Positions 14,824 through 44,634 of a stretch of 64,000 nucleotides of DNA are shown piece by piece. The notes under the pieces are model-generated. The model did no database searches. It saw only the letters and a program-made list of their open reading frames with translations, and was not told where the DNA came from. The first letter of the stretch is position 1. Each line of letters opens with the position of its first letter. The position numbers were made by a program, and so were the translations under genes. The stretch lies in the NCBI GenBank assembly GCA_937922675.1, contig CALAJN010000004.1, forward strand, positions 248,001 through 312,000. Reading direction: 5' to 3'. The stretch is from an uncultured Granulosicoccaceae bacterium. Its GTDB lineage: Bacteria; Pseudomonadota; Gammaproteobacteria; Granulosicoccales; Granulosicoccaceae.

Positions 14824-15462
14824 TCAGGCTGGGTCTTTCGTGCGTGGGGGAGCCTCAATCGCAAGCACGGAAGAGTCTGCGACAATGCGTGGTGCAGTAT
14901 CTGGCAACCGCTGCGCTCGGTCATCGTCAAGCTGACGTGTCTGTCGCCATCTGAGCAGGTAGCCACCGAGAGCACCGGCCGATGTGGACAGCGTGAGCAA
15001 GCCGAGCGTCAGCAACTCGGTCAGCAACATGAGCACACCCAGACCGGCGGTGGTAAAAAAGGTAAGCCCCAGCTTGAGGCTTGCACCCCGACTTACTCTG
15101 CGCTCACGTTTCTCGGCCTCTCGGCGGATCTTGTCAACGGCCTTGTCCTGCTCGCGCCGCGCTGCCACCTGTACCTTCTCACGCTCCTGCAGGGCATCTA
15201 CCTGAACCCTCTCTCGCGCCTCAACGGCCTCCACCTTGAGCTGTTCTCGCTCGCGTGCATGGGCCTCTATCAGAGCAGCGTGCCGCTGGTCAGACTGGCT
15301 TCTCGAAAGCGTCGCGAACCATAAGGCCATCACAAGCGTCACAACGGCGCAGGGGAGCCCCGCACGGACGAGCAAATCCATGGGCTCTGCGCGCGCATTC
15401 ACATGGAGCAAACCAACAGCAACGAGCTGGATCAGAATCAGTCCGGGGAGATAGCGGAGCAT
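14824..15462 (-). CDS. Three-helix membrane protein with a central coiled coil, unknown function
   Basis: About 212 residues. Two hydrophobic helices lie near the N-terminus (YLPGLILIQLVAVGLLHV and AVVTLVMALWFATL). A strongly charged Glu/Arg/Gln-rich coiled coil of about 60 residues follows, then a long hydrophobic segment (LGLTFFTTAGLGVLMLLTEL and following). The C-terminal tail is hydrophilic. No domain recognised. I took the ATG directly before the first helix. A GTG 75 bases upstream would add a 25-residue extension and overlap the opposite polB frame. It is divergent from polB. Confidence 0.65.
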   Translation of the reverse strand: MLRYLPGLILIQLVAVGLLHVNARAEPMDLLVRAGLPCAVVTLVMALWFATLSRSQSDQRHAALIEAHAREREQLKVEAVEARERVQVDALQEREKVQVAARREQDKAVDKIRREAEKRERRVSRGASLKLGLTFFTTAGLGVLMLLTELLTLGLLTLSTSAGALGGYLLRWRQTRQLDDDRAQRLPDTAPRIVADSSVLAIEAPPRTKDPA

Positions 15463-15551
15463 GGGGGCAGTCTTGATGAGAATGCCTTGAGGGTAACGCA
15501 GGAGTGGCTCAGCCGCGTCACCGTTCAACGCGGACACGCTACTCTAGAGCG

Positions 15552-17909
15552 GTGAGCGATTCCATCGACGGCTTCCTGTTGACCCGGCAATTTCGAGACA
15601 CCCGCGAGGGGCTCGAGCTTGGCTATTGGGCTGCGACAGATGGCTTGCCCTTGTGGCTGCGCTACCCACGCCAGGAGGCCGTTTGTTTCACTCCCCGCGC
15701 CGAAGCCTTGCCGACAATTGCCGGTGTCCGGCGCAAACCGTTGGAGCTTGTGTCCATGAACGGGAAGCCGGTTGATGCCATCTACGCCAGTACCTGGCGA
15801 GCACTGAGTGAACTGGCAGGCACAGGGGCAGCCTTGCTCGAATCGGATGTCAAACCGCATGACAGGTATCTGATGGAGCGCTATGTACGCGCAGGCTTCA
15901 CAGCGTCTGGCGAGGTGATACAGCATGAGGCCTACCTCGAGATGATCAATCCGCGCATCAAACCGTGGCAGGAGACACGGGTACAGCTCAGCGAGCATGT
16001 CATAGCGCAAGGTGCTGATAGTCGCCCGCGGTTGGTTTGTCTGGCGCTTGATATCGAGACGCGCGGCTCGAGTCGAGAACTCTATTCGATAGCGGGCGCT
16101 GTCGCCGGGGGTGATGCACGTGTGTTCATGGTCGGCAATGAGTCTGATCAAGTGCGCGATGGCTACCTGCTGCACTTCGGGCAGGATGAGCGCACCATTC
16201 TTGACGCGTTTTTTGCCTGGGTCGCGGAGGTGGATCCTGATGTACTGACTGGCTGGAGCGTAGTCGGTTTCGATCTTGCGTTTTTGGACAACAAATGCAA
16301 ATCTCTCGGCATTCGATTTGCGATTGGCCGAGGCCCTGAGACGGCCTCCGTTTTCAAGGGTGGCAATCAAGCTCAAGGTGATCCGCGTATCGCGCGCATT
16401 CCAGGGCGTGCAGTGCTCGACGGTATCGATCTGTTGAAGGCGGCGTTCTACAGCTTCGAGAGTTTCTCGCTGGAGAACGTCGCGCGGGAGTTTCTCGGCG
16501 TGGGCAAGCTCATTGCCCCTGAGGCCGACAAGGTGGGAGAGATCAACCGACTGTTTCGCGAGGACAAGGCACAGTTGGCGGATTACAACCTGCGCGATTG
16601 CACCTTGGTGAACGAAATTCTGGACAAGGCAGACCTTGTGTCATTTGCCATAGCCAGGGCCAGTCTGACAGGCCTGTCGCTTGATCGTCTGGCAGGTGCC
16701 ACAGCGGCATTTGACAACCTGTATCTACCCGAACTGCACCGCGCTGGCAGAGTGGCGCCTGACGTCAACATCGCCGCATCCGGTCTTGCCAGCCCCGGCG
16801 GTCATGTCATGGATTCTGTGCCAGGCTTGTATAAAAATGTGTTGGTACTTGATTTCAAAAGTCTCTACCCGAGCATCATCCGAACCTTTTTTGTTGATCC
16901 TCTGGGGCTTGCTGTCTCGTCAGAGGATCCGCAGCCGGTGCCCGGGTTTCTCGAGGCTCGTTTTCATCGAGAACAGCACATTCTTCCTGGTCTGATCACA
17001 TCGCTTTCGGCCTCACGTGATGTTGCAAAGACTCAGCGCAATACACCTCTTTCCACAGCCATAAAAATTATCATGAACTCGTTTTACGGCGTGTTGGGTA
17101 GCAGCTCCTGTCGCTTTCACGACCCACGGCTCGCCTCGAGCATCACGCGTCGTGGCCATGACATCATCACCGGTACTCGCGACTGGGTGGAAGCACGGGG
17201 GTATCAAGTCATATACGGAGATACGGACTCGGTCTTTGTTCTGTTGGGTGATCAGGTGCCGGACAACGAGACCGACGCGCTTGGAAGGACCTTGGCACAG
17301 GGGCTTGATGAACACTGGGAGCGTGAACTAAGCGAGCGTTTTGACCTTGAATCACACCTTGAGGTGGAATTTGAAACGCGGTACGCACGCTTTTTCATGC
17401 CAACGGTGCGCGGTACGTCCACGGGAAGCAAGAAGCGCTACGCAGGCTGGGTCGAACGCCCTGGACAGGCAGGCGAGCTTGTGGTCAAAGGCCTTGAAGC
17501 TGTGCGTACCGACTGGACGCCGTTAGCACGCGAATTTCAGCGCGAGTTGTTGCGATGCGTGTTCCGTGATCTGCCGGTGGAGCCGTACGTCATCGCAACG
17601 CACAAGGCGGTCTTGAGTGGTGAGTGTGACGACAAGCTGGTGTATCGCAAACGGCTCAGGCGCAGTCTTGGTGACTATCAGCGCAACGTACCGCCTCACG
17701 TACAGGCCGCCCGCAAGCTTGTGCGCCCGGGCAAGACGGTCCGCTATGTGATCACGGTGAATGGCCCGGAGCCAGTTGAAGCTCACGTCTCACCGATTGA
17801 TCATGAGCACTATATCGAGCGCCAATTGGCGCCAGCGGCAGACGGCATTCTGAAGTCCATAGGTACCAGCTTTCACGCCATGACCGATGCGCAGCTTGGT
17901 CTTTTTTAA
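15552..17909 (+). CDS. polB: DNA polymerase II (family B)
   Basis: 785 residues, as long as E. coli Pol II (783). The 3'-5' exonuclease motifs are seen at LALDIETRGS and WSVVGFDLAFLDNKC. The polymerase motifs are LDFKSLYPSIIRTFFVDP, KIIMNSFYGVLG and YGDTDSVFV, with the catalytic aspartates intact. The protein ends in QLGLF, a sliding-clamp binding motif. Pol II restarts stalled forks and bypasses lesions. The GTG at 15552 gives the expected N-terminus (GFLLTRQFRDT). No LexA box was found in the short upstream region, unlike in E. coli. Confidence 0.95.
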   Translation: MSDSIDGFLLTRQFRDTREGLELGYWAATDGLPLWLRYPRQEAVCFTPRAEALPTIAGVRRKPLELVSMNGKPVDAIYASTWRALSELAGTGAALLESDVKPHDRYLMERYVRAGFTASGEVIQHEAYLEMINPRIKPWQETRVQLSEHVIAQGADSRPRLVCLALDIETRGSSRELYSIAGAVAGGDARVFMVGNESDQVRDGYLLHFGQDERTILDAFFAWVAEVDPDVLTGWSVVGFDLAFLDNKCKSLGIRFAIGRGPETASVFKGGNQAQGDPRIARIPGRAVLDGIDLLKAAFYSFESFSLENVAREFLGVGKLIAPEADKVGEINRLFREDKAQLADYNLRDCTLVNEILDKADLVSFAIARASLTGLSLDRLAGATAAFDNLYLPELHRAGRVAPDVNIAASGLASPGGHVMDSVPGLYKNVLVLDFKSLYPSIIRTFFVDPLGLAVSSEDPQPVPGFLEARFHREQHILPGLITSLSASRDVAKTQRNTPLSTAIKIIMNSFYGVLGSSSCRFHDPRLASSITRRGHDIITGTRDWVEARGYQVIYGDTDSVFVLLGDQVPDNETDALGRTLAQGLDEHWERELSERFDLESHLEVEFETRYARFFMPTVRGTSTGSKKRYAGWVERPGQAGELVVKGLEAVRTDWTPLAREFQRELLRCVFRDLPVEPYVIATHKAVLSGECDDKLVYRKRLRRSLGDYQRNVPPHVQAARKLVRPGKTVRYVITVNGPEPVEAHVSPIDHEHYIERQLAPAADGILKSIGTSFHAMTDAQLGLF

Positions 17910-23699: not shown

Positions 23700-24731
23700 A
23701 TGTCTGCGCCCGCTGCTTACTACACAGGTAATAAACAGTTCTCGCTCGAGAGCGTTGAACCACAAGAGCCCGGCGAGGGAGAGGTGCAGATCGAGGTTGC
23801 GTTCTGCGGAATCTGTGGCACCGATCTGCACGTGTACCTTGGTCATATGGACGCACGAATCGGCAACCACCGCGTTATCGGCCATGAAATGTCCGGCACC
23901 GTTACAGCCGTGGGTCATGGTGTAACAACCGCCTCATTCGGTGATCGTATTGTGGTGCGTCCACTTGATCACTGTGGTGAGTGTCCGTCCTGTCAACGGG
24001 GTTTCCAGCATGTCTGTCAAAACCTCAAGTTTCTGGGTCTGGATACAGACGGTGCTTTTCAGCGCTACTGGAACGTGCCGGCACATACACTGCACTCGGT
24101 ACCTGATGGCATGCCGCTGGATCTTGCTGCCTTGATCGAGCCAACGGCTGTCGCCTGCCATGACGTGCGTCGTGGTCGGGTCGAGGCTGGTGAGGATGTG
24201 TTGGTCATTGGCGGCGGGCCGATAGGTATGTTGGTGGCACTGGTGGCGCAGCAGGCCGGGGCCAACGTCACTGTCTCTGAGGTCAACCCCGCGCGTCTTG
24301 CAATGGCTGCCGACCTGGGATGTGCAACTGTGGATCCTCGTGCTGAAAATCCTGTAGAAACCATTATGTCGATGACCGGCGGCAAGGGCGCCGATGTCGT
24401 GTTTGAAGTATCAGGTACAAAACCCGGTGTTGACCTGATGACGGCAGCAACCGCTACGCGCGGACGTATCGTCATGGTTGCCATACATGCGACCCAACCT
24501 GAAGTTGATCTGTTTCAGTTCTTCTGGAAGGAGATCGAGATGTTGGGCGCACGTGTCTACGAACCACAGGACTACGACGAGGCGATCCGACTGGTCGCCG
24601 ATGGCGCCATAGATGCGCGCAAACTCATCACCTCGATCAAACCGCTGGATGACATACAAGGTGCATTCGATGAACTGGCAGACTCTTCAGCATCGATGAA
24701 AACACTCATTCGCTGCGGCGCGGAGGCTTGA
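23700..24731 (+). CDS. Zinc-dependent alcohol/polyol dehydrogenase (MDR family)
   Basis: 343 residues of the threonine/sorbitol dehydrogenase type. The catalytic zinc site is CGICGTDLH...IGHEMSG. The structural zinc site has four cysteines in CGECPSCQRGFQHVC. The NAD-binding motif is VLVIGGGPIGMLVA. A substrate such as L-idonate, a polyol or a sugar acid is plausible because the next gene, three bases on, is a KduD-like dehydrogenase. GGAG lies six bases before the ATG. The two genes probably form an operon for a sugar-acid oxidation step. Confidence 0.9.
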   Translation: MSAPAAYYTGNKQFSLESVEPQEPGEGEVQIEVAFCGICGTDLHVYLGHMDARIGNHRVIGHEMSGTVTAVGHGVTTASFGDRIVVRPLDHCGECPSCQRGFQHVCQNLKFLGLDTDGAFQRYWNVPAHTLHSVPDGMPLDLAALIEPTAVACHDVRRGRVEAGEDVLVIGGGPIGMLVALVAQQAGANVTVSEVNPARLAMAADLGCATVDPRAENPVETIMSMTGGKGADVVFEVSGTKPGVDLMTAATATRGRIVMVAIHATQPEVDLFQFFWKEIEMLGARVYEPQDYDEAIRLVADGAIDARKLITSIKPLDDIQGAFDELADSSASMKTLIRCGAEA

Positions 24732-24734
24732 AGG

Positions 24735-25505
24735 ATGGCTGTACTCGATACTTTTGGCCTTGCTGGCAAGACGGCTCTGGTGACCGGATGCAAACGTGGC
24801 ATTGGTCGCGCCATGGCTGAAGCATTGGCAGAGGCCGGCGCCGATATCATCGGCGTCAGTGCCTCGCTGGAGGCTCAAGGCAGTGAAGTTGCCCAAGCTG
24901 TCGAGGCGCGCGGGCGACGCTTCACGGCTTATGCCTGTGATTTTTCTGACCGCGCTGCCCTGACCGCGTTTACCGGGCAACTTGAAGAACATCATCCAGT
25001 GATCGACATACTGATCAACAATGCCGGTACCATCCGACGTGCGCCAGCCGCGGAGCATCCAGATGCCTTGTGGGACGAGGTTATTGAAGTCAACCTGTCG
25101 GCCCAGTTCATCCTGACGCGTGAAGTCGGTCGTCGTATGGTGGAGCGTGGTAGTGGCAAGGTTGTGTTTACCGCATCACTGCTGACGTTCCAAGGGGGGA
25201 TCACAGTGCCAGGCTATGCTGCAAGCAAGGGAGGCGTTGGACAATTGACCATGGCATTTGCCAATGAATGGGCAAGCAAGGGAGTCAATGTCAACGCCAT
25301 AGCTCCAGGGTATATAAGCACCGATAATACGCAAGCCCTCCGTGATGACAAGCAGAGGCACGACGCTATCCTTGGCCGCATACCTGCTGGCCGATGGGGA
25401 GAGCCTCAGGACTTCGCAGGCCCTACCGTGTTTCTGGCCTCACCTGCCTCGGACTATCTCCATGGCAGTATCATCACTGTCGATGGTGGTTGGATGGGCC
25501 GCTAG
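24735..25505 (+). CDS. kduD: SDR dehydrogenase, KduD-like (2-dehydro-3-deoxy-D-gluconate / gluconate type)
   Basis: 256 residues. The cofactor motif is LVTGCKRGIGRAMAEAL and the NNAG motif is ILINNAGTIRRAP. The catalytic Ser and Tyr-x-x-x-Lys are in FTASLLTFQGG and GYAASKGG. NAIAPGYISTDNT and VDGGWMGR are signatures of KduD-type enzymes that interconvert deoxyketo-gluconates. Paired with the upstream zinc dehydrogenase. No kduI or hydrolase genes are nearby, so the physiological substrate remains inferred. Confidence 0.82.
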   Translation: MAVLDTFGLAGKTALVTGCKRGIGRAMAEALAEAGADIIGVSASLEAQGSEVAQAVEARGRRFTAYACDFSDRAALTAFTGQLEEHHPVIDILINNAGTIRRAPAAEHPDALWDEVIEVNLSAQFILTREVGRRMVERGSGKVVFTASLLTFQGGITVPGYAASKGGVGQLTMAFANEWASKGVNVNAIAPGYISTDNTQALRDDKQRHDAILGRIPAGRWGEPQDFAGPTVFLASPASDYLHGSIITVDGGWMGR

Positions 25506-38885: not shown

Positions 38886-39839
38886 TCAGCTTGCCAGCCG
38901 CAGTGGCTCGATTTCGTTGAGGTTGATCTCGCCTGTCAAGGCTGCCAGAACTTCATTGCAATTCTCGGTGCTGACCTGACAGGTCCCGGCTGCGGCGTGA
39001 CCGCCACCGCCAAACTTCAGCATCAGATCCCCGACGTTGGTCTGGCAGCTGCGATCAAAGATCGACTTGCCCGTTGCGAATACGACGTTCTGCTTCTGAA
39101 ACCCCCACATCTGGTGGATCGAGATATTGCACTGCGGAAATTTGGCATAGATCGAGAAGCGACTGCCGGCGTAGATAACCTCCTCGTCGCGCAGGTCGAG
39201 GACCACGAGGTTGTCGTGTACGGTGCTGCATCGCTCCAACTGATCCTGAAATTGCTCTTTCTGGCTCTCGTACAGATCGATGCGCTCCTGAAGGTCGTCC
39301 ATGGCCAGAATCTCCTCAATCGTGTGATTACGGCACGCGTCGATCAAATTCATCATCAGCTGGTAGTTGGAGATGCGAAACTCACGAAAGCGTCCCAGCC
39401 CGGTGCGTGAGTCCATCAGCATGTTCAGAAGCTCCCACTTTTGCGGGTTCAGCACTTCCTCCATCGAGTACTGAGCTGAGTCCGCCTTGTCAACGGCGCT
39501 CATCATTTCATCCCACTCTGGCGGGAACACATCATGACCACCGTAGTGCTTCCAGACGACACGGGCAGCGGATGGCGCATCCGCGTCGATCACGTAGTTG
39601 TCTACCGAGGTGTTGTTGCGACGTGTCTCTGACTCATGATGGTCAAACACCATGAAAGCCTCGGCAACATAGGGAAGATTGGTGGTGATGTCGTTGCCAG
39701 TGATCTCGATCTTGCCATCCTGCATATCCTTCGGATGAACAAATGTGATGTCCTCAATCAGATTGAGGTGCTTGAGAAGTACGGCGCAAACAAGTCCATC
39801 GAAGTCGCTGCGTGTGACGAGGCGAAACAATTCGCTCAT
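38886..39839 (-). CDS. DHH-family phosphoesterase
   Basis: 317 residues. The N-terminal DHH domain has TRSDFDGLVCAVLLKHL and the metal-binding VFDHHES. The C-terminal DHHA1-like part ends in FGGGGHAAAGTCQV. These motifs belong to exopolyphosphatase-like or nanoRNase-like phosphoesterases. The precise substrate (oligoribonucleotides, cyclic dinucleotides or polyphosphate) is not readable. Stands alone, convergent with bamE. Confidence 0.88.
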   Translation of the reverse strand: MSELFRLVTRSDFDGLVCAVLLKHLNLIEDITFVHPKDMQDGKIEITGNDITTNLPYVAEAFMVFDHHESETRRNNTSVDNYVIDADAPSAARVVWKHYGGHDVFPPEWDEMMSAVDKADSAQYSMEEVLNPQKWELLNMLMDSRTGLGRFREFRISNYQLMMNLIDACRNHTIEEILAMDDLQERIDLYESQKEQFQDQLERCSTVHDNLVVLDLRDEEVIYAGSRFSIYAKFPQCNISIHQMWGFQKQNVVFATGKSIFDRSCQTNVGDLMLKFGGGGHAAAGTCQVSTENCNEVLAALTGEINLNEIEPLRLAS

Positions 39840-40009: not shown

Positions 40010-41323
40010 CTAGCCCTGCAGATCAAACTGCTCGTCAGGGAAATACTTTTTCAGGCGGATGTCAGCGGCGCGAGCGTGGCCTTCCATGCCCTCGAGCCTC
40101 GAAATGCGTGCAGTGGCTTCGGCTACGGGCTTTGAGGCATCGCGCGTTGCTCGCTGCCAGGTCACCACCTTCATGAACTTGTGCACCGAGAGCCCCCCCG
40201 AGTAGGTCGCAGCACGTGACGTCGGCAGAACATGGTTGGTGCCTGAGGCCTTGTCACCGTAGGATACCGTGGTCTCCTCACCGAGAAACAGTGAGCCGTA
40301 GCACGACAGTCGTTCAAGCCACCAGTCGAGATCCTCGGCCTGAACCGTCAAGTGCTCTGGTGCATATTCATCAGACGTAGCTGCCATGCTCTCGCGGTCC
40401 TTGCAGAGTATGACCTCGGCATAGTCACGCCAGGCCGCCTCGGCGTTGACCCGATTTGTCTCTGGTAGATCGGCAATGAGCTCCGGCACACGCGCGATTA
40501 CCCTCTCAGCCAGTGAGCGGTTGTCGGTGACCAGCCACACCGGCGAGTTGTAACCGTGCTCGGCCTGACTGACAAGGTCAACAGCGACCACTTCAGCATC
40601 GGCGCTTGCATCAGCGAGGATAAGACTGTCGGTAGGACCTGCGAACATATCGATGCCAACGCGCCCGTACAGAATTCGCTTGGCCTCAGCGACAAACTGA
40701 TTGCCGGGCCCAACAAGAATATCCGCCTTGGGCAAACCGAACAGACCAAAGGTCATGGCGGCGACGCCCTGCACGCCACCCATGGCAAGAATCGCATCCG
40801 CTCCGCACAGGTGGGCCGCATAGACGATAGCGTCGTTGACGCCCTGCCCGGCGCGTGGTGGCGAACAGGCAACGATGTGACCTACACCTGCGACCTTGGC
40901 GGTGGTCACGGTCATGATCGCGCTGGCAACATGGCTGTAGCGACCGCCCGGTACATAGCATCCAGCGGCACCACAGGGAACGCATTTTTGCCCCAGTGTG
41001 AAGCCTGGCAAGACCTGCATATCAAGGTCTGCCATGGAGGCGCGCTGTGCCTCGGCAAAGCGTTTGACATTGTCGTATGCAAACGCGATGTCCTGTTTGA
41101 GTCGTGGCGAGACTCTGTCAGCTGCAGCAGCAATTTCGTCAGCGGTCAGCAACAGATTGCCTTCGTATTGATCAAATTTCTCGGCATAGCGTCTTGCTGC
41201 TGCCTCGCCGCCTTGTTCAATGTCATTGAGAATGCCTTGCACAGTGTCATGGACATCGTCCGAATCACTGCCTGCGGTCTTGCTGGCTCGCTTGAGAAAG
41301 TCCCGATCTGATGTCTGATTCAT
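40010..41323 (-). CDS. hpsN: HpsN-like sulfopropanediol 3-dehydrogenase (histidinol dehydrogenase superfamily)
   Basis: 437 residues of the HisD superfamily. NAD- and zinc-binding motifs include GCYVPGGRYSHVASAIMTV, VGPGNQFVAEAKR and FAGPTDSLILAD. Features such as AWRDYAEVILC and SYGDKASGTNHVLPTSRAA group it with HpsN, which oxidises 2,3-dihydroxypropane-1-sulfonate to sulfolactate, rather than with biosynthetic HisD. No other his gene is nearby. The context of comD, comE and an alpha-hydroxyacid enzyme strongly supports sulfonate metabolism. Its ATG overlaps the upstream stop by four bases. Confidence 0.85.
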   Translation of the reverse strand: MNQTSDRDFLKRASKTAGSDSDDVHDTVQGILNDIEQGGEAAARRYAEKFDQYEGNLLLTADEIAAAADRVSPRLKQDIAFAYDNVKRFAEAQRASMADLDMQVLPGFTLGQKCVPCGAAGCYVPGGRYSHVASAIMTVTTAKVAGVGHIVACSPPRAGQGVNDAIVYAAHLCGADAILAMGGVQGVAAMTFGLFGLPKADILVGPGNQFVAEAKRILYGRVGIDMFAGPTDSLILADASADAEVVAVDLVSQAEHGYNSPVWLVTDNRSLAERVIARVPELIADLPETNRVNAEAAWRDYAEVILCKDRESMAATSDEYAPEHLTVQAEDLDWWLERLSCYGSLFLGEETTVSYGDKASGTNHVLPTSRAATYSGGLSVHKFMKVVTWQRATRDASKPVAEATARISRLEGMEGHARAADIRLKKYFPDEQFDLQG

Positions 41324-42486
41324 GCTGCGTTTCTCGCCGACCCACGCCTACCTGGCACAATACCTGGCGGCGCCGAGTGAAGGCTTTGGTGATTGATCTC
41401 TTCGAGGCTAGTCACGCCAAGTTGAGCAAGGGTAATACTGGTCTCTTTGACAAGTACATCGCAGAGCTCTGCAAGTCCGGACTCGCCGGCCGCGGCAATG
41501 GCAAACAGCAGTGGGCGTCCAAGAAAGACAAAATCCGCGCCCACGGCATGCGCCTTGACGATATCTTCTCCCGAGCACATCCCGCTGTCGTAGAACAAGG
41601 GGTAACCCGGCCCCAGCGCCTCGCGGATACGAGCCAGTTGCAAGATCGGCGCTGGTGCACTCTCCAGCTGTCGCCCACCGTGGCTTGACACTTGAATAGC
41701 GTCTACGCCTGCGGCTCGGAGTTGCTGTGCGTCCTCAACGTTGAGTACGCCCTTGACAATCAGCTTGCCCTGCCAGTGCTCACGCAGTCGCTTCAGTAGC
41801 GCCCAATCCGCTCCCGCCCGACTGCGTGTGCGATCGAACTCGCCATGCTCGCCACCGAAGTTGGCAAGCTCTGGTCGTCCCTTGGCAAGCGTTGCCAGCG
41901 ACCACTGCGGGTGCAGGGCAAAGTCGATGAACTGTTGTGCGCCGATGCGAAACGGCATCGTGAAGCCACGCCTGAGCTCGCGTGGGCGACGACCAACCTC
42001 AGGCACATCCACCGTCAGCACCAGCGTCTCGTAGCCTGCTGCCCCGGCACGATCAGCCAGCTGTAAAGAGCCGTGCTCATCGCCACTGAAATACAGCTGA
42101 AACCAGGCATTGCCGTTGGCGAGCTCGATCAGTTGCTCAAGTGGCGATGACGACGCGGTGGATACTCCCAGCGGGGTGTCATGTTTTGCCGCGAGGCGCG
42201 CAAGCATATGATCAGCACCTGGCCAGGCAAGATTGCACAGGCCCATGGGTGTGATACCAAAAGGCAAGCCTGTCGCTCTTTCAAACACGGTGGCGGCAGT
42301 GGATCTGTGCTCGACATCGCGAAGACTTCGCGGCTGCAATATCAGCTCTTGCAGGGCCTTGCGGTTACGCTCAACCGCAAGGCCGTTACCTGCAGCGCCA
42401 TCAATGTAGTCGAACACCAGCGCAGGCAGGCGTCGTTTGGCAAGGCGCCTTGCGTCTTCAACAGTATGCAAGCGTCTGGCAGACAT
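41320..42486 (-). CDS. FMN-dependent alpha-hydroxyacid oxidase/dehydrogenase, candidate sulfolactate dehydrogenase
   Basis: 388 residues of the lactate/glycolate oxidase family. Visible are VFDYIDGAAG, the FMN-binding TVDVPEVGRRPRELRRGF, the substrate Tyr in WFQLYFSGD, the FMN Lys in LIVKGVLNVEDA, and the catalytic His-Arg in VSSHGGRQLE. The usual SNHGGRQLD is altered to SSHGGRQLE. It sits between ComE and HpsN, exactly where sulfolactate must be oxidised to sulfopyruvate. Known enzymes for that step (ComC, SlcC, SlcD) belong to other families, so this assignment is inferred. Confidence 0.82.
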   Translation of the reverse strand: MSARRLHTVEDARRLAKRRLPALVFDYIDGAAGNGLAVERNRKALQELILQPRSLRDVEHRSTAATVFERATGLPFGITPMGLCNLAWPGADHMLARLAAKHDTPLGVSTASSSPLEQLIELANGNAWFQLYFSGDEHGSLQLADRAGAAGYETLVLTVDVPEVGRRPRELRRGFTMPFRIGAQQFIDFALHPQWSLATLAKGRPELANFGGEHGEFDRTRSRAGADWALLKRLREHWQGKLIVKGVLNVEDAQQLRAAGVDAIQVSSHGGRQLESAPAPILQLARIREALGPGYPLFYDSGMCSGEDIVKAHAVGADFVFLGRPLLFAIAAAGESGLAELCDVLVKETSITLAQLGVTSLEEINHQSLHSAPPGIVPGRRGSARNAA

Positions 42487-42498
42487 GCTCGTCTGCGA

Positions 42499-43062
42499 TC
42501 AGCCTTGCGTGGCCGCGATGGTCTTCATGAAACGATCCTTGATCACAACAGGGTCCATGGTAATCACTGGTACCTTGACGTTGCCGGATTCGCATTTGCA
42601 GACGATTACGGTGCCATGCTCCGCCGCCAGTGCTGCCTTGACAGTTTCAACAGCATCCGCAGCATCACATTCGACCACGTGCTCGCTACCGCAGGCGCGG
42701 GCAACTTCTGTCAGCGAGGTCTTGCCACCAGCGTAGGTGGGTTGGTCACCGGTTGACCCATAGCTACCGTTGTCGATGATCAACAGGATCAGGTTGGGAG
42801 TCGGGTTGTTGCCGATGGTGGCCAGAGTCCCGAGGTTGGTCAGTACCGATCCATCACCATCGATGGCGATGACTTTGCGGTTTTGTGTCAGAGCAACACC
42901 GAGCCCGATCGATGAGGCCAGACCCATCGTGCCCAGCATGTAGAAGTTGCTGGGCTGATCCAGGGTCTTGTGTAGCTCCTGGCTTGGCAAACCAATGTTG
43001 CAGACGACCAGCTGGTCACGAAGAACGGGTACAAGCAATTCAAGAATTTCTGAGCGAACCAT
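42499..43062 (-). CDS. comE: Sulfopyruvate decarboxylase beta subunit
   Basis: 187 residues, the thiamine-diphosphate-binding half. The GDGS...N motif is AIDGDGSVLTNLGTLATIGN and IIDNGSYGSTGDQPTY. MLGTMGLASSIGLGVAL is also typical. Together with ComD it decarboxylates sulfopyruvate to sulfoacetaldehyde. The gene starts three bases after comD, as expected for equimolar subunits. Phosphonopyruvate decarboxylase is related but normally one long chain, and no phosphonate genes are present. Confidence 0.88.
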   Translation of the reverse strand: MVRSEILELLVPVLRDQLVVCNIGLPSQELHKTLDQPSNFYMLGTMGLASSIGLGVALTQNRKVIAIDGDGSVLTNLGTLATIGNNPTPNLILLIIDNGSYGSTGDQPTYAGGKTSLTEVARACGSEHVVECDAADAVETVKAALAAEHGTVIVCKCESGNVKVPVITMDPVVIKDRFMKTIAATQG

Positions 43063-43065
43063 GAC

Positions 43066-43563
43066 TTAGTACCCCTTCCAGAAAGTGGCATCCGTGAGAA
43101 TGGCAACAGGCTTGTTACACATGTAGGTATGTTTCAGGATCGCGTCGAACTCGGCGGCGTCCTCTTCCTGATGGAAGTGATATGTCGGGATAAGCAGTTG
43201 ATCAAGCAGAGCCTTGGTGTGCACAGCCATCTCTACCTGGCAGGCGACAGGCTCACCCAACTCGCCGCGGTAGCTGATCAACATCGGCAGCGGCATGCGG
43301 TAATACTGTGTCAAGGTGACCAGTGTGTTGACCACAACGCCAATGGCGGTGTTCTGCATGATGATCGCTGGTCGCTTGCCGCCCATGTGCGCACCGGCGC
43401 ACAGCCCGATACCTTCGTCCTCTTTGTTGCACGGCACGTGCAGGATGCGCTCATGCTTGTCGACGGCATCGATGACGCCACCGAGCTGCTTGCACGGCAC
43501 GGTAGTGACGAATTCGACCTCGTTGTTAACGAGATCGTTGACGAGCTGGTCGTGAATGGTCAA
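43066..43563 (-). CDS. comD: Sulfopyruvate decarboxylase alpha subunit
   Basis: 165 residues, close to the 169 of the methanogen ComD. Conserved are FVTTVPCKQLGGVIDAV, the cofactor-activating Glu in CNKEDEGIGLCAG, and MLISYRGELGEPVACQV. The start is a TTG with a perfect GGAG seven bases upstream. Upstream in-frame codons to 43617 lack a site. First gene of a four-gene operon. A palindrome-rich promoter lies just upstream. Confidence 0.88.
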   Translation of the reverse strand: MTIHDQLVNDLVNNEVEFVTTVPCKQLGGVIDAVDKHERILHVPCNKEDEGIGLCAGAHMGGKRPAIIMQNTAIGVVVNTLVTLTQYYRMPLPMLISYRGELGEPVACQVEMAVHTKALLDQLLIPTYHFHQEEDAAEFDAILKHTYMCNKPVAILTDATFWKGY

Positions 43564-43625
43564 AGGCTGGCTCCAGAAGCGATAGCCGAGTATCGGTGGT
43601 GTTGGAGCTTTATGCAATCTGTCAG

Positions 43626-43663
43626 AGCTTTATTTTTTATAAAGCTAATGCTTTAGTTGTCGT
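43626..43663 (-). promoter_or_regulatory. Promoter and palindromic operator of the comDE-FMN-hpsN operon
   Basis: On the minus strand ACGACA, 16 bases and TATAAA form a promoter directly after the lysR stop. A perfect 8-bp inverted repeat (AGCTTTAT/ATAAAGCT, T5 loop, 43626-43646) overlaps the -10. A third half-site GCTTTAG lies at 43650-43656. The repeated GCTTTA arms next to a LysR gene suggest the regulator's binding sites. Confidence 0.55.
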
Positions 43664-43666
43664 TGG

Positions 43667-44557
43667 CTACTGCGAATCTCGATTCCGGCCCGCGATCACC
43701 CTGCCAACAACGCCCGCGAGGCGCGACACCAGGCGAACGGCGGCACTGTCCCGCCGACTGACGATGCCGAGGCTTCGAGGCCGGGCAGACGGCTCGAGCG
43801 GGAGCTTGCGCAGGGACGAAAAGATCGGATCAGGCACACACAGATCGGGCGCGATAGACACCCCGAGTCCGTGCGCCACCATACTCGCTACCGATTCCAG
43901 TGACTCCATCTCCATCGCGGTGTTCACACTGACGCCGTTGCTGCTCAACCACTCATCGGCCAGGTGGCCAACAGCTGCGCGCCTCGTGTGACGAATAAAC
44001 GGTTGCGTCTGCAGCAGATTGCGCACGTCATCGTCCTCGATATCGGGGTTTGCCAGGAGCACCAGAGGCTCTTCAAACAAGGGCACCCAGTCGAGCGCAC
44101 TGACCACACGTCCGGGGTCGCTCAATACAGCGGCATCCACTGCGCCGCGCTCAACCTGTTCAAGTAGATCCTGTGTCAGGCCAGGCACTACCCTGATACG
44201 CAGCCCGGGTACCTCACTCATCAGCTGCTTTGCAGACAAGGGCACAAGACCCCGAATGGTTGACGGGACCGCACCGATCACAAACTCGCCTTGCCAGCTG
44301 TCATCACCTGGCAGGTCATCGAGCAATCCATCGTAGGCCGCAGTCAGCTCACGTACGCGCGGCAGCATGGCTATGGCCCGCGGGTTGAGTTGGGCAGCGC
44401 CTGATCGGCGGTCAAACAATGCGGTGGCGAGCTCGGCTTCCAGCCGCTTCATCTGTTGGCCGACCGCTGCAGGCGATATACCCATTTGCTCTGAGGCGGC
44501 AGCAAAGCTGCCACTGTCGGCAACGATGACCAGCGTCTTGAGAAGCACAATAGACAT
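43667..44557 (-). CDS. LysR-family transcriptional regulator, probable regulator of the sulfonate operon
   Basis: 296 residues. The N-terminal winged helix-turn-helix is VIVADSGSFAAASEQMGISP, then AVGQQMKRLEAEL. The effector domain follows (GEFVIGAVPSTIRGLVP and later GLGVSIAPDL). The first ATG after a TTG-started extension was chosen. It lies directly upstream of comD in the same direction, a common layout for a regulator that controls the neighbouring catabolic operon. The effector is presumably a C3 sulfonate. Confidence 0.88.
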   Translation of the reverse strand: MSIVLLKTLVIVADSGSFAAASEQMGISPAAVGQQMKRLEAELATALFDRRSGAAQLNPRAIAMLPRVRELTAAYDGLLDDLPGDDSWQGEFVIGAVPSTIRGLVPLSAKQLMSEVPGLRIRVVPGLTQDLLEQVERGAVDAAVLSDPGRVVSALDWVPLFEEPLVLLANPDIEDDDVRNLLQTQPFIRHTRRAAVGHLADEWLSSNGVSVNTAMEMESLESVASMVAHGLGVSIAPDLCVPDPIFSSLRKLPLEPSARPRSLGIVSRRDSAAVRLVSRLAGVVGRVIAGRNRDSQ

Positions 44558-44634
44558 CCTGACAGTGTGCCAGTCAATGCCAGTCAACGCTCAGGCACAA
44601 TGCGCTAACCGCCAGCGCACGGACAGATCAGCTT

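Follow-up and report, generated by a model that had tools for sequence, protein, structure and literature searches.

We analyzed a 64,000-nucleotide stretch of DNA (hereafter "the window") from an uncultured Granulosicoccaceae bacterium (contig CALAJN010000004.1, positions 248,001 to 312,000) and focused on a compact operon predicted to break down C3 sulfonates, small sulfur-containing acids that algae produce. The operon consists of four genes, colinear on the minus strand: comD, comE, a gene for a flavin mononucleotide (FMN)-dependent alpha-hydroxyacid dehydrogenase (hereafter the FMN gene, encoding the FMN enzyme) and hpsN. The features of the locus are as follows.

43667..44587, minus strand: LysR-type transcriptional regulator gene (PF00126 and PF03466), 103 bp upstream of comD and co-directional with it
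43606..43646: candidate operator in the space separating the LysR gene from comD, with three AT-rich copies of the 8-mer ATAAAGCT
43066..43563, minus strand: comD, sulfopyruvate decarboxylase alpha subunit (TIGR03845), with a TTG start
42499..43062, minus strand: comE, sulfopyruvate decarboxylase beta subunit (TIGR03846)
41320..42486, minus strand: FMN-dependent alpha-hydroxyacid dehydrogenase gene (PF01070), its product assigned from sequence as the putative SlcD, (R)-sulfolactate dehydrogenase
40010..41323, minus strand: hpsN, (R)-2,3-dihydroxypropane-1-sulfonate (DHPS) 3-dehydrogenase (best PDB match 8WWE plus the motif GRYSH)

The genes are tightly packed, with 3 bp between comD and comE, 12 bp between comE and the FMN gene, and a 4-bp overlap between the FMN gene and hpsN. 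This arrangement confirms a preliminary description of the window, which had reported a gap-free comD-comE-FMN-hpsN operon. The identities proposed there for comDE and hpsN were likewise borne out. ComE scored 227.7 bits against TIGR03846 (cut-off 221.5), and ComD passed TIGR03845 narrowly (149.1 bits, cut-off 147.95). The HpsN protein also passed the HisD model TIGR00069; its top solved relatives were the (R)-DHPS dehydrogenase 8WWE (676 bits) and the sulfopropanediol 3-dehydrogenase 8V35 (521 bits), with the best histidinol dehydrogenase match far behind at 259 bits. According to a passage of PMC11131964, 8WWE is RpHpsN, the HpsN of Ruegeria pomeroyi. The sequence GRYSH begins at residue 127 of the window protein, and GRY(A/S)H, replacing the GSAPL of HisD, is given as the HpsN motif in part of PMC11382572. 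The catalytic blocks PEHL (at 322) and GDKASG (at 356) lined up with their equivalents in 8V35, and the catalytic Glu-His pair and the Asp of the GDK loop were conserved. Because the best PDB match is 8WWE and GRYSH is present, the HisD-like product of the fourth gene is, judged by its sequence, HpsN. Where these two papers describe HpsN, it is a catabolic DHPS dehydrogenase (PMC11382572, PMC11131964) that produces (R)-sulfolactate (PMC11382572). A gene for sulfoacetaldehyde acetyltransferase (Xsc) lies elsewhere in the genome (G000:C17:21059-22786; 930.7 bits, cut-off 676.4). At the xsc locus L051, a 479-aa open reading frame (ORF; 15090-16529) directly downstream of xsc matched nothing in NCBIfam or Pfam at the thresholds applied.

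The FMN enzyme scored 382.4 bits against PF01070 (cut-off 24.9), and its gene is the only full-length PF01070 gene above the cut-off in the window's genome (3.63-Mb assembly). Its best full-length solved match was the (S)-mandelate dehydrogenase 6BFG. RefSeq names the gene "alpha-hydroxy acid oxidase," and NCBIfam contains no curated model that names it. We counted residues in 118 distinct members of the FMN clade, defined for this purpose as proteins whose identity to the window FMN protein is 58% or more, and in 17 proteins outside it. Tyr27, Tyr132, Asp160, Arg167, Lys245, His269 and Arg272, whose catalytic roles we take to be those of their counterparts in mandelate dehydrogenase, were each present in 118 out of 118 clade members.

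The preliminary description had pointed to the active-site block SSHGGRQLE, in place of the common SNHGGRQLD, as consistent with a different substrate. The window enzyme does carry this block, and half of the argument stood: the residue preceding the catalytic His was Ser in 113 out of 118 clade members and Asn in 17 out of 17 outside proteins (Ser in 0/17), making the N-to-S change a clade signature. The D-to-E change is not one, because 61 of the 118 members end the block with Asp and 53 with Glu; the block as a whole was therefore rejected as a sign of a new substrate. Arg219 occurred in 118/118 clade members and 5/17 outside proteins, and since it is located in a variable loop region, we would guess that it may be a contact for the sulfonate. 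Position 82 is Gly, matching Gly81 of membrane-bound mandelate dehydrogenase, a residue associated with behavior as a dehydrogenase and not as an oxidase. The enzyme also aligned gap-free with residues 175-206 of mandelate dehydrogenase, the membrane-binding region of that protein. Gly82 and the ungapped segment lead us to expect a membrane-associated dehydrogenase, and the FMN enzyme is probably one; the mandelate-dehydrogenase-like segment is only suggestive in this respect.

The gene order that the preliminary description had suggested seeking in relatives was found there. We used two main sets of loci: named loci, which were the best 80 of 574 relatives, fetched with the FMN protein alone and with nearer relatives sampled; and loci from kin genomes, of which 29 were examined with about 1.5 kb of flank shown, loci having been given for 30 matches. 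The FMN gene lay directly adjacent to comE in 59 of the 80 named loci and had hpsN within 8 kb in 58; one or the other held for 66. Among the kin loci, comE was adjacent in 16 out of 29 and hpsN lay within 1.5 kb in 9 out of 29; L017 showed comD-comE-FMN-hpsN, identical to the window, and comE-FMN-hpsN was visible in L027. A search of the genus Ruegeria returned 30 loci, of which 28 were kept, with comE adjacent in all 28. This comparison excluded loci whose best FMN match contained a stop or covered less than 80% of the query (3/80 named loci and 2/30 Ruegeria-search loci). Other arrangements were seen as well: TctC and TctA genes separating the FMN gene from comDE, which lies about 3 kb upstream (L104), TctC, TctA and TctB genes upstream, beside the FMN gene (L106), and hpsO and hpsP adjoining the FMN gene (L084). 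The gene dctM, part of a tripartite ATP-independent periplasmic (TRAP) uptake system, was present in the cluster of 38 of the 80 named loci, and one kin genome (7.78 Mb, single contig) carried the cluster dctPQM-hpsN-comD-comE-FMN-hpsO-hpsP.

As a control, we inspected 11 other full-length PF01070 genes from six Roseobacter genomes, none of which had comE or hpsN within about 1.5 kb. In a 77-row tree, all 49 rows that have comE or hpsN close by fell inside a single 60-row clade (SH-like approximate likelihood ratio test, 99), and the 17 rows outside that clade had neither gene nearby. The tree was built with a quick method without bootstrap, and the program warned that some outgroup branches are long; the tree omits 21 listed loci as duplicates or near-copies, and thinning by number removed five of six Ruegeria loci and two of three named loci with comE adjacent. 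The gene set recurs in relatives far beyond chance. Five loci from kin genomes (L043-L045, L140 and L141) encode a sister group with 48-53% identity and the PF01070 fold, with no comDE or hps neighbors; its neighbors in L140 are molybdenum-hydroxylase, amidohydrolase and DUF1989 genes. L098, on a contig titled as an Acidimicrobiales metagenome-assembled genome, carries an slcD-type gene 67% identical to that of the window, reflecting either gene transfer or wrong binning.

Denger et al., whose work PMC4334477 cites, reportedly named a membrane-bound sulfolactate dehydrogenase SlcD in 2009, together with the transporter SlcHFG and ComDE. Part of PMC11131964 labels SlcD as (R)-sulfolactate dehydrogenase, and section 2.8 of PMC11382572, published in 2024, credits Ruegeria sp. 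ANG-S4, Jannaschia sp. CCS1 and Granulosicoccus antarcticus with a pathway in which SlcD joins HpsNOP, ComDE and Xsc. The cluster of Ruegeria sp. ANG-S4 (L092) comprises genes for LacI, dctPQM, hpsN, hpsO, hpsP, usp, comD, comE and the FMN gene. A Pfam scan of seven flanking ORFs at this locus picked up an aldehyde dehydrogenase and an aminotransferase, among others, but revealed no other hydroxyacid dehydrogenase. ANG-S4 also carries a second full-length PF01070 gene (L143), which is 31% identical and has neither comE nor hpsN as a neighbor. Because the FMN gene is the sole candidate in the cluster of a strain for which PMC11382572 names SlcD, the FMN enzyme is most likely SlcD. Consistent with this assignment, three loci (L079, L103 and L124) have the order hpsN-hpsO-hpsP-usp-FMN, with no comDE, placing the FMN gene where slcD follows hpsQ in the R. 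pomeroyi order hpsN-hpsO-hpsP-hpsQ-slcD (given in a passage of PMC4334477). The assignment draws on linkage, gene order and exclusion. The protein family of SlcD was stated in none of the literature passages found. The wording "FMN-dependent alpha-hydroxy acid dehydrogenase" in the relevant passage of PMC4334477 refers to SPO1172 rather than slcD.

Taken together, these results make it very probable that the operon represents, in compact form, the Xsc branch already known for C3-sulfonate degradation, with the FMN enzyme as SlcD and sulfolactate as its predicted substrate. HpsN would use NAD+ (nicotinamide adenine dinucleotide) as the acceptor in oxidizing (R)-DHPS, yielding (R)-sulfolactate. 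SlcD would then turn this product into 3-sulfopyruvate through the mechanism typical of alpha-hydroxyacid enzymes, in which His269 would serve as the base, Arg167 and Arg272 would hold the carboxylate, and a hydride would pass to FMN. Its electrons would probably enter a membrane quinone/cytochrome chain, rather than going to NAD+ or mainly to oxygen. ComDE would decarboxylate sulfopyruvate to sulfoacetaldehyde, from which Xsc, encoded elsewhere in the genome, would form acetyl phosphate and sulfite. Because CH2SO3 outranks COOH in the Cahn-Ingold-Prelog rules, (R)-sulfolactate shares the geometry of L-lactate, and PF01070 enzymes are described in part of PMC10153336 as accepting L-2-hydroxy acids. 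The preliminary description had assigned the sulfolactate-to-sulfopyruvate step of a C3-sulfonate operon to the FMN enzyme, a predicted role that the conserved linkage and catalytic residues support. Its further claim of a new sulfolactate dehydrogenase does not stand, SlcD having already been named and the ANG-S4 cluster offering only the FMN gene for it; that the operon is instead a new example of a published pathway is well supported.

Several observations weigh against this reading. In 14 of the 80 named loci, several of them at contig ends, the FMN gene lacked both an adjacent comE and an hpsN within 8 kb; no link was seen in L065, L090 and L129, although about 10 kb flanks the gene in either direction. 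The window operon itself contains no hpsO, hpsP, hpsQ or transporter genes. Searches with RpHpsN gave best matches of 86% in 394 genomes of the family of Ruegeria conchae and 85% in 54 genomes of its genus, so R. pomeroyi (SPO0598) was not among the genomes searched. The three nearest RpHpsN loci opened (L197-L199; 85-86%) had no FMN gene, which neither confirms nor refutes the assignment; a SuyB-type gene (PF04295/PF20629) is present in two of them, accompanied in one case by an Ldh_2 gene. Finally, the window's genome has a single Ldh_2 (ComC-family) gene (G000:C11:4039-5016; 299.7 bits), which could be ComC. The earlier statement that the sulfolactate step is covered only by the FMN enzyme therefore holds within the operon but is weakened for the genome as a whole. 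As a separate observation, the genes that come after hpsNOP and usp in L198 (9503-13000) look by eye like those of PIG-L, RraA and PrpF proteins, with neither slcD nor comDE in the stretch.

Other explanations were weighed against the assignment of the FMN enzyme as SlcD. It is unlikely that SlcD comes from another family, with the FMN clade, marked by Ser268 and Arg219, being an independent, undescribed sulfolactate dehydrogenase widespread in marine Alphaproteobacteria and Gammaproteobacteria; should an experimentally studied SlcD prove to belong to another family, the clade would indeed be new. The FMN enzyme might alternatively be a lactate, glycolate or mandelate dehydrogenase that sits in the operon by chance. 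Among curated models and solved structures it comes closest to the lactate dehydrogenase LldD and to mandelate dehydrogenase and, as the product of the genome's sole full-length PF01070 gene, it might also serve lactate. However, it missed all NCBIfam models of those enzymes by far (242 versus 376 bits and 213 versus 550), the linkage to comDE and hpsN is kept across two classes, and the FMN clade is separate from lactate-type paralogs of the same genomes, making a chance placement quite improbable.

We consider it very unlikely that an NAD(P)-dependent ComC-type enzyme encoded elsewhere performs the sulfolactate step while the FMN enzyme uses another sulfonated hydroxyacid. The genome's Ldh_2 protein is 37% identical to that of L199, where the Ldh_2 gene adjoins hpsNOP and a gene of the SuyB type, but in the window's genome the Ldh_2 gene is unlinked to the operon, Ldh_2 proteins are functionally diverse, and in most relatives the FMN gene lies directly 3' of comE, whose substrate is sulfopyruvate. 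ComDE first became known from coenzyme M biosynthesis, and the operon could in principle be biosynthetic, with a coenzyme-M-like use of ComDE and with the FMN enzyme and HpsN working in the biosynthetic direction. We give this idea almost no credence: Xsc is present, dctM for TRAP uptake occurs in 38/80 clusters, and HpsN is catabolic in the passages cited above (PMC11382572, PMC11131964).

Genes that might complement the operon were sought elsewhere in the genome. TRAP dctPQM genes and an HpsP-like gene lie together (L217 7763-12952; G000:C11, about 73.8-79 kb) at a candidate DHPS uptake locus. The DctM and DctP parts of this TRAP system were 76-77% identical to those of the TRAP system beside hpsNOP in L058, and the HpsP-like protein, whose gene is unlinked to the operon, had 49% identity to Leisingera HpsP. 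The same locus also encodes a 272-aa protein without a Pfam match. Searching the genome for hpsO yielded none that was convincing, with 30 short-chain dehydrogenase/reductase (SDR) matches, the best two at 41 and 42% identity, and the Roseobacter-type DHPS DctP had only remote matches (25% at best). The selection rule set out in part of PMC11382572 places hpsO and hpsP beside hpsN, a grouping from which the window operon departs. Within the window, at 23700-25505, adjacent alcohol dehydrogenase and SDR genes encode proteins with 29-31% identity to Leisingera HpsP and 39-42% to HpsO; this pair probably belongs to another polyol pathway.

The LysR-type protein is a probable local regulator of the operon. 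It scored below every specific NCBIfam cut-off, and a homolog (38-56% identity) was found inside the stretch of 3 out of 29 kin loci and 4 out of 80 named loci. Two of the three copies of ATAAAGCT face each other, 5 nt apart (inverted repeats I2 and I3), and there is a second TTG for comD at 43617. Scans of the operon for promoters (2 found versus 1.6 expected) and terminators (6 found versus 3.2 expected) were uninformative. Downstream of the operon, on the minus strand, 38886-39839 encodes a 317-aa protein that by eye looks like a DHH-type phosphoesterase and has no match in Pfam or NCBIfam.

Much of the traffic in carbon and sulfur between algae and marine bacteria takes the form of DHPS and sulfolactate. 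Linking SlcD to a single, well-marked FMN clade would provide a marker that is missing from current annotation and would place the SlcD-ComDE route widely in Granulosicoccaceae (Gammaproteobacteria). PMC11382572, in the part concerned, reports the Xsc pathway in Alphaproteobacteria only, though it lists Granulosicoccus as an example.

Among known enzymes, (S)-mandelate dehydrogenase (6BFG, 1HUV) shares with the FMN clade its fold family, catalytic residues, Gly81 equivalent and membrane-segment equivalent, whereas the clade has Ser268 in place of Asn273, Arg219 and a different genetic context. The NAD(P)-dependent sulfolactate dehydrogenases ComC and SlcC act on the same substrate-product pair but belong to families unrelated to the FMN enzyme, use another cofactor and are absent from this operon. 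SlcD of Roseovarius nubinhibens and R. pomeroyi (SPO0598) catalyzes the step predicted here, and its neighbors hpsNOP and the UspA-type hpsQ are those seen in L079, L103 and L124. In other relatives, comDE and tripartite tricarboxylate transporter genes lie beside the FMN gene, as in SlcD systems, and the Tct genes by the FMN gene in L104 and L106 resemble slcHFGD. By contrast, the window operon is without hpsO, hpsP, hpsQ and a transporter, the hpsP and TRAP candidates of its genome being unlinked, unlike in the HpsNOP-SlcD-ComDE-Xsc pathway. Where the window has comD-comE-slcD-hpsN with a LysR gene, ANG-S4 (L092) has hpsN-O-P-usp-comD-comE-slcD with LacI; the enzyme set is nevertheless the same as that of the pathway described, in the section cited, for ANG-S4, CCS1 and Granulosicoccus antarcticus (PMC11382572).

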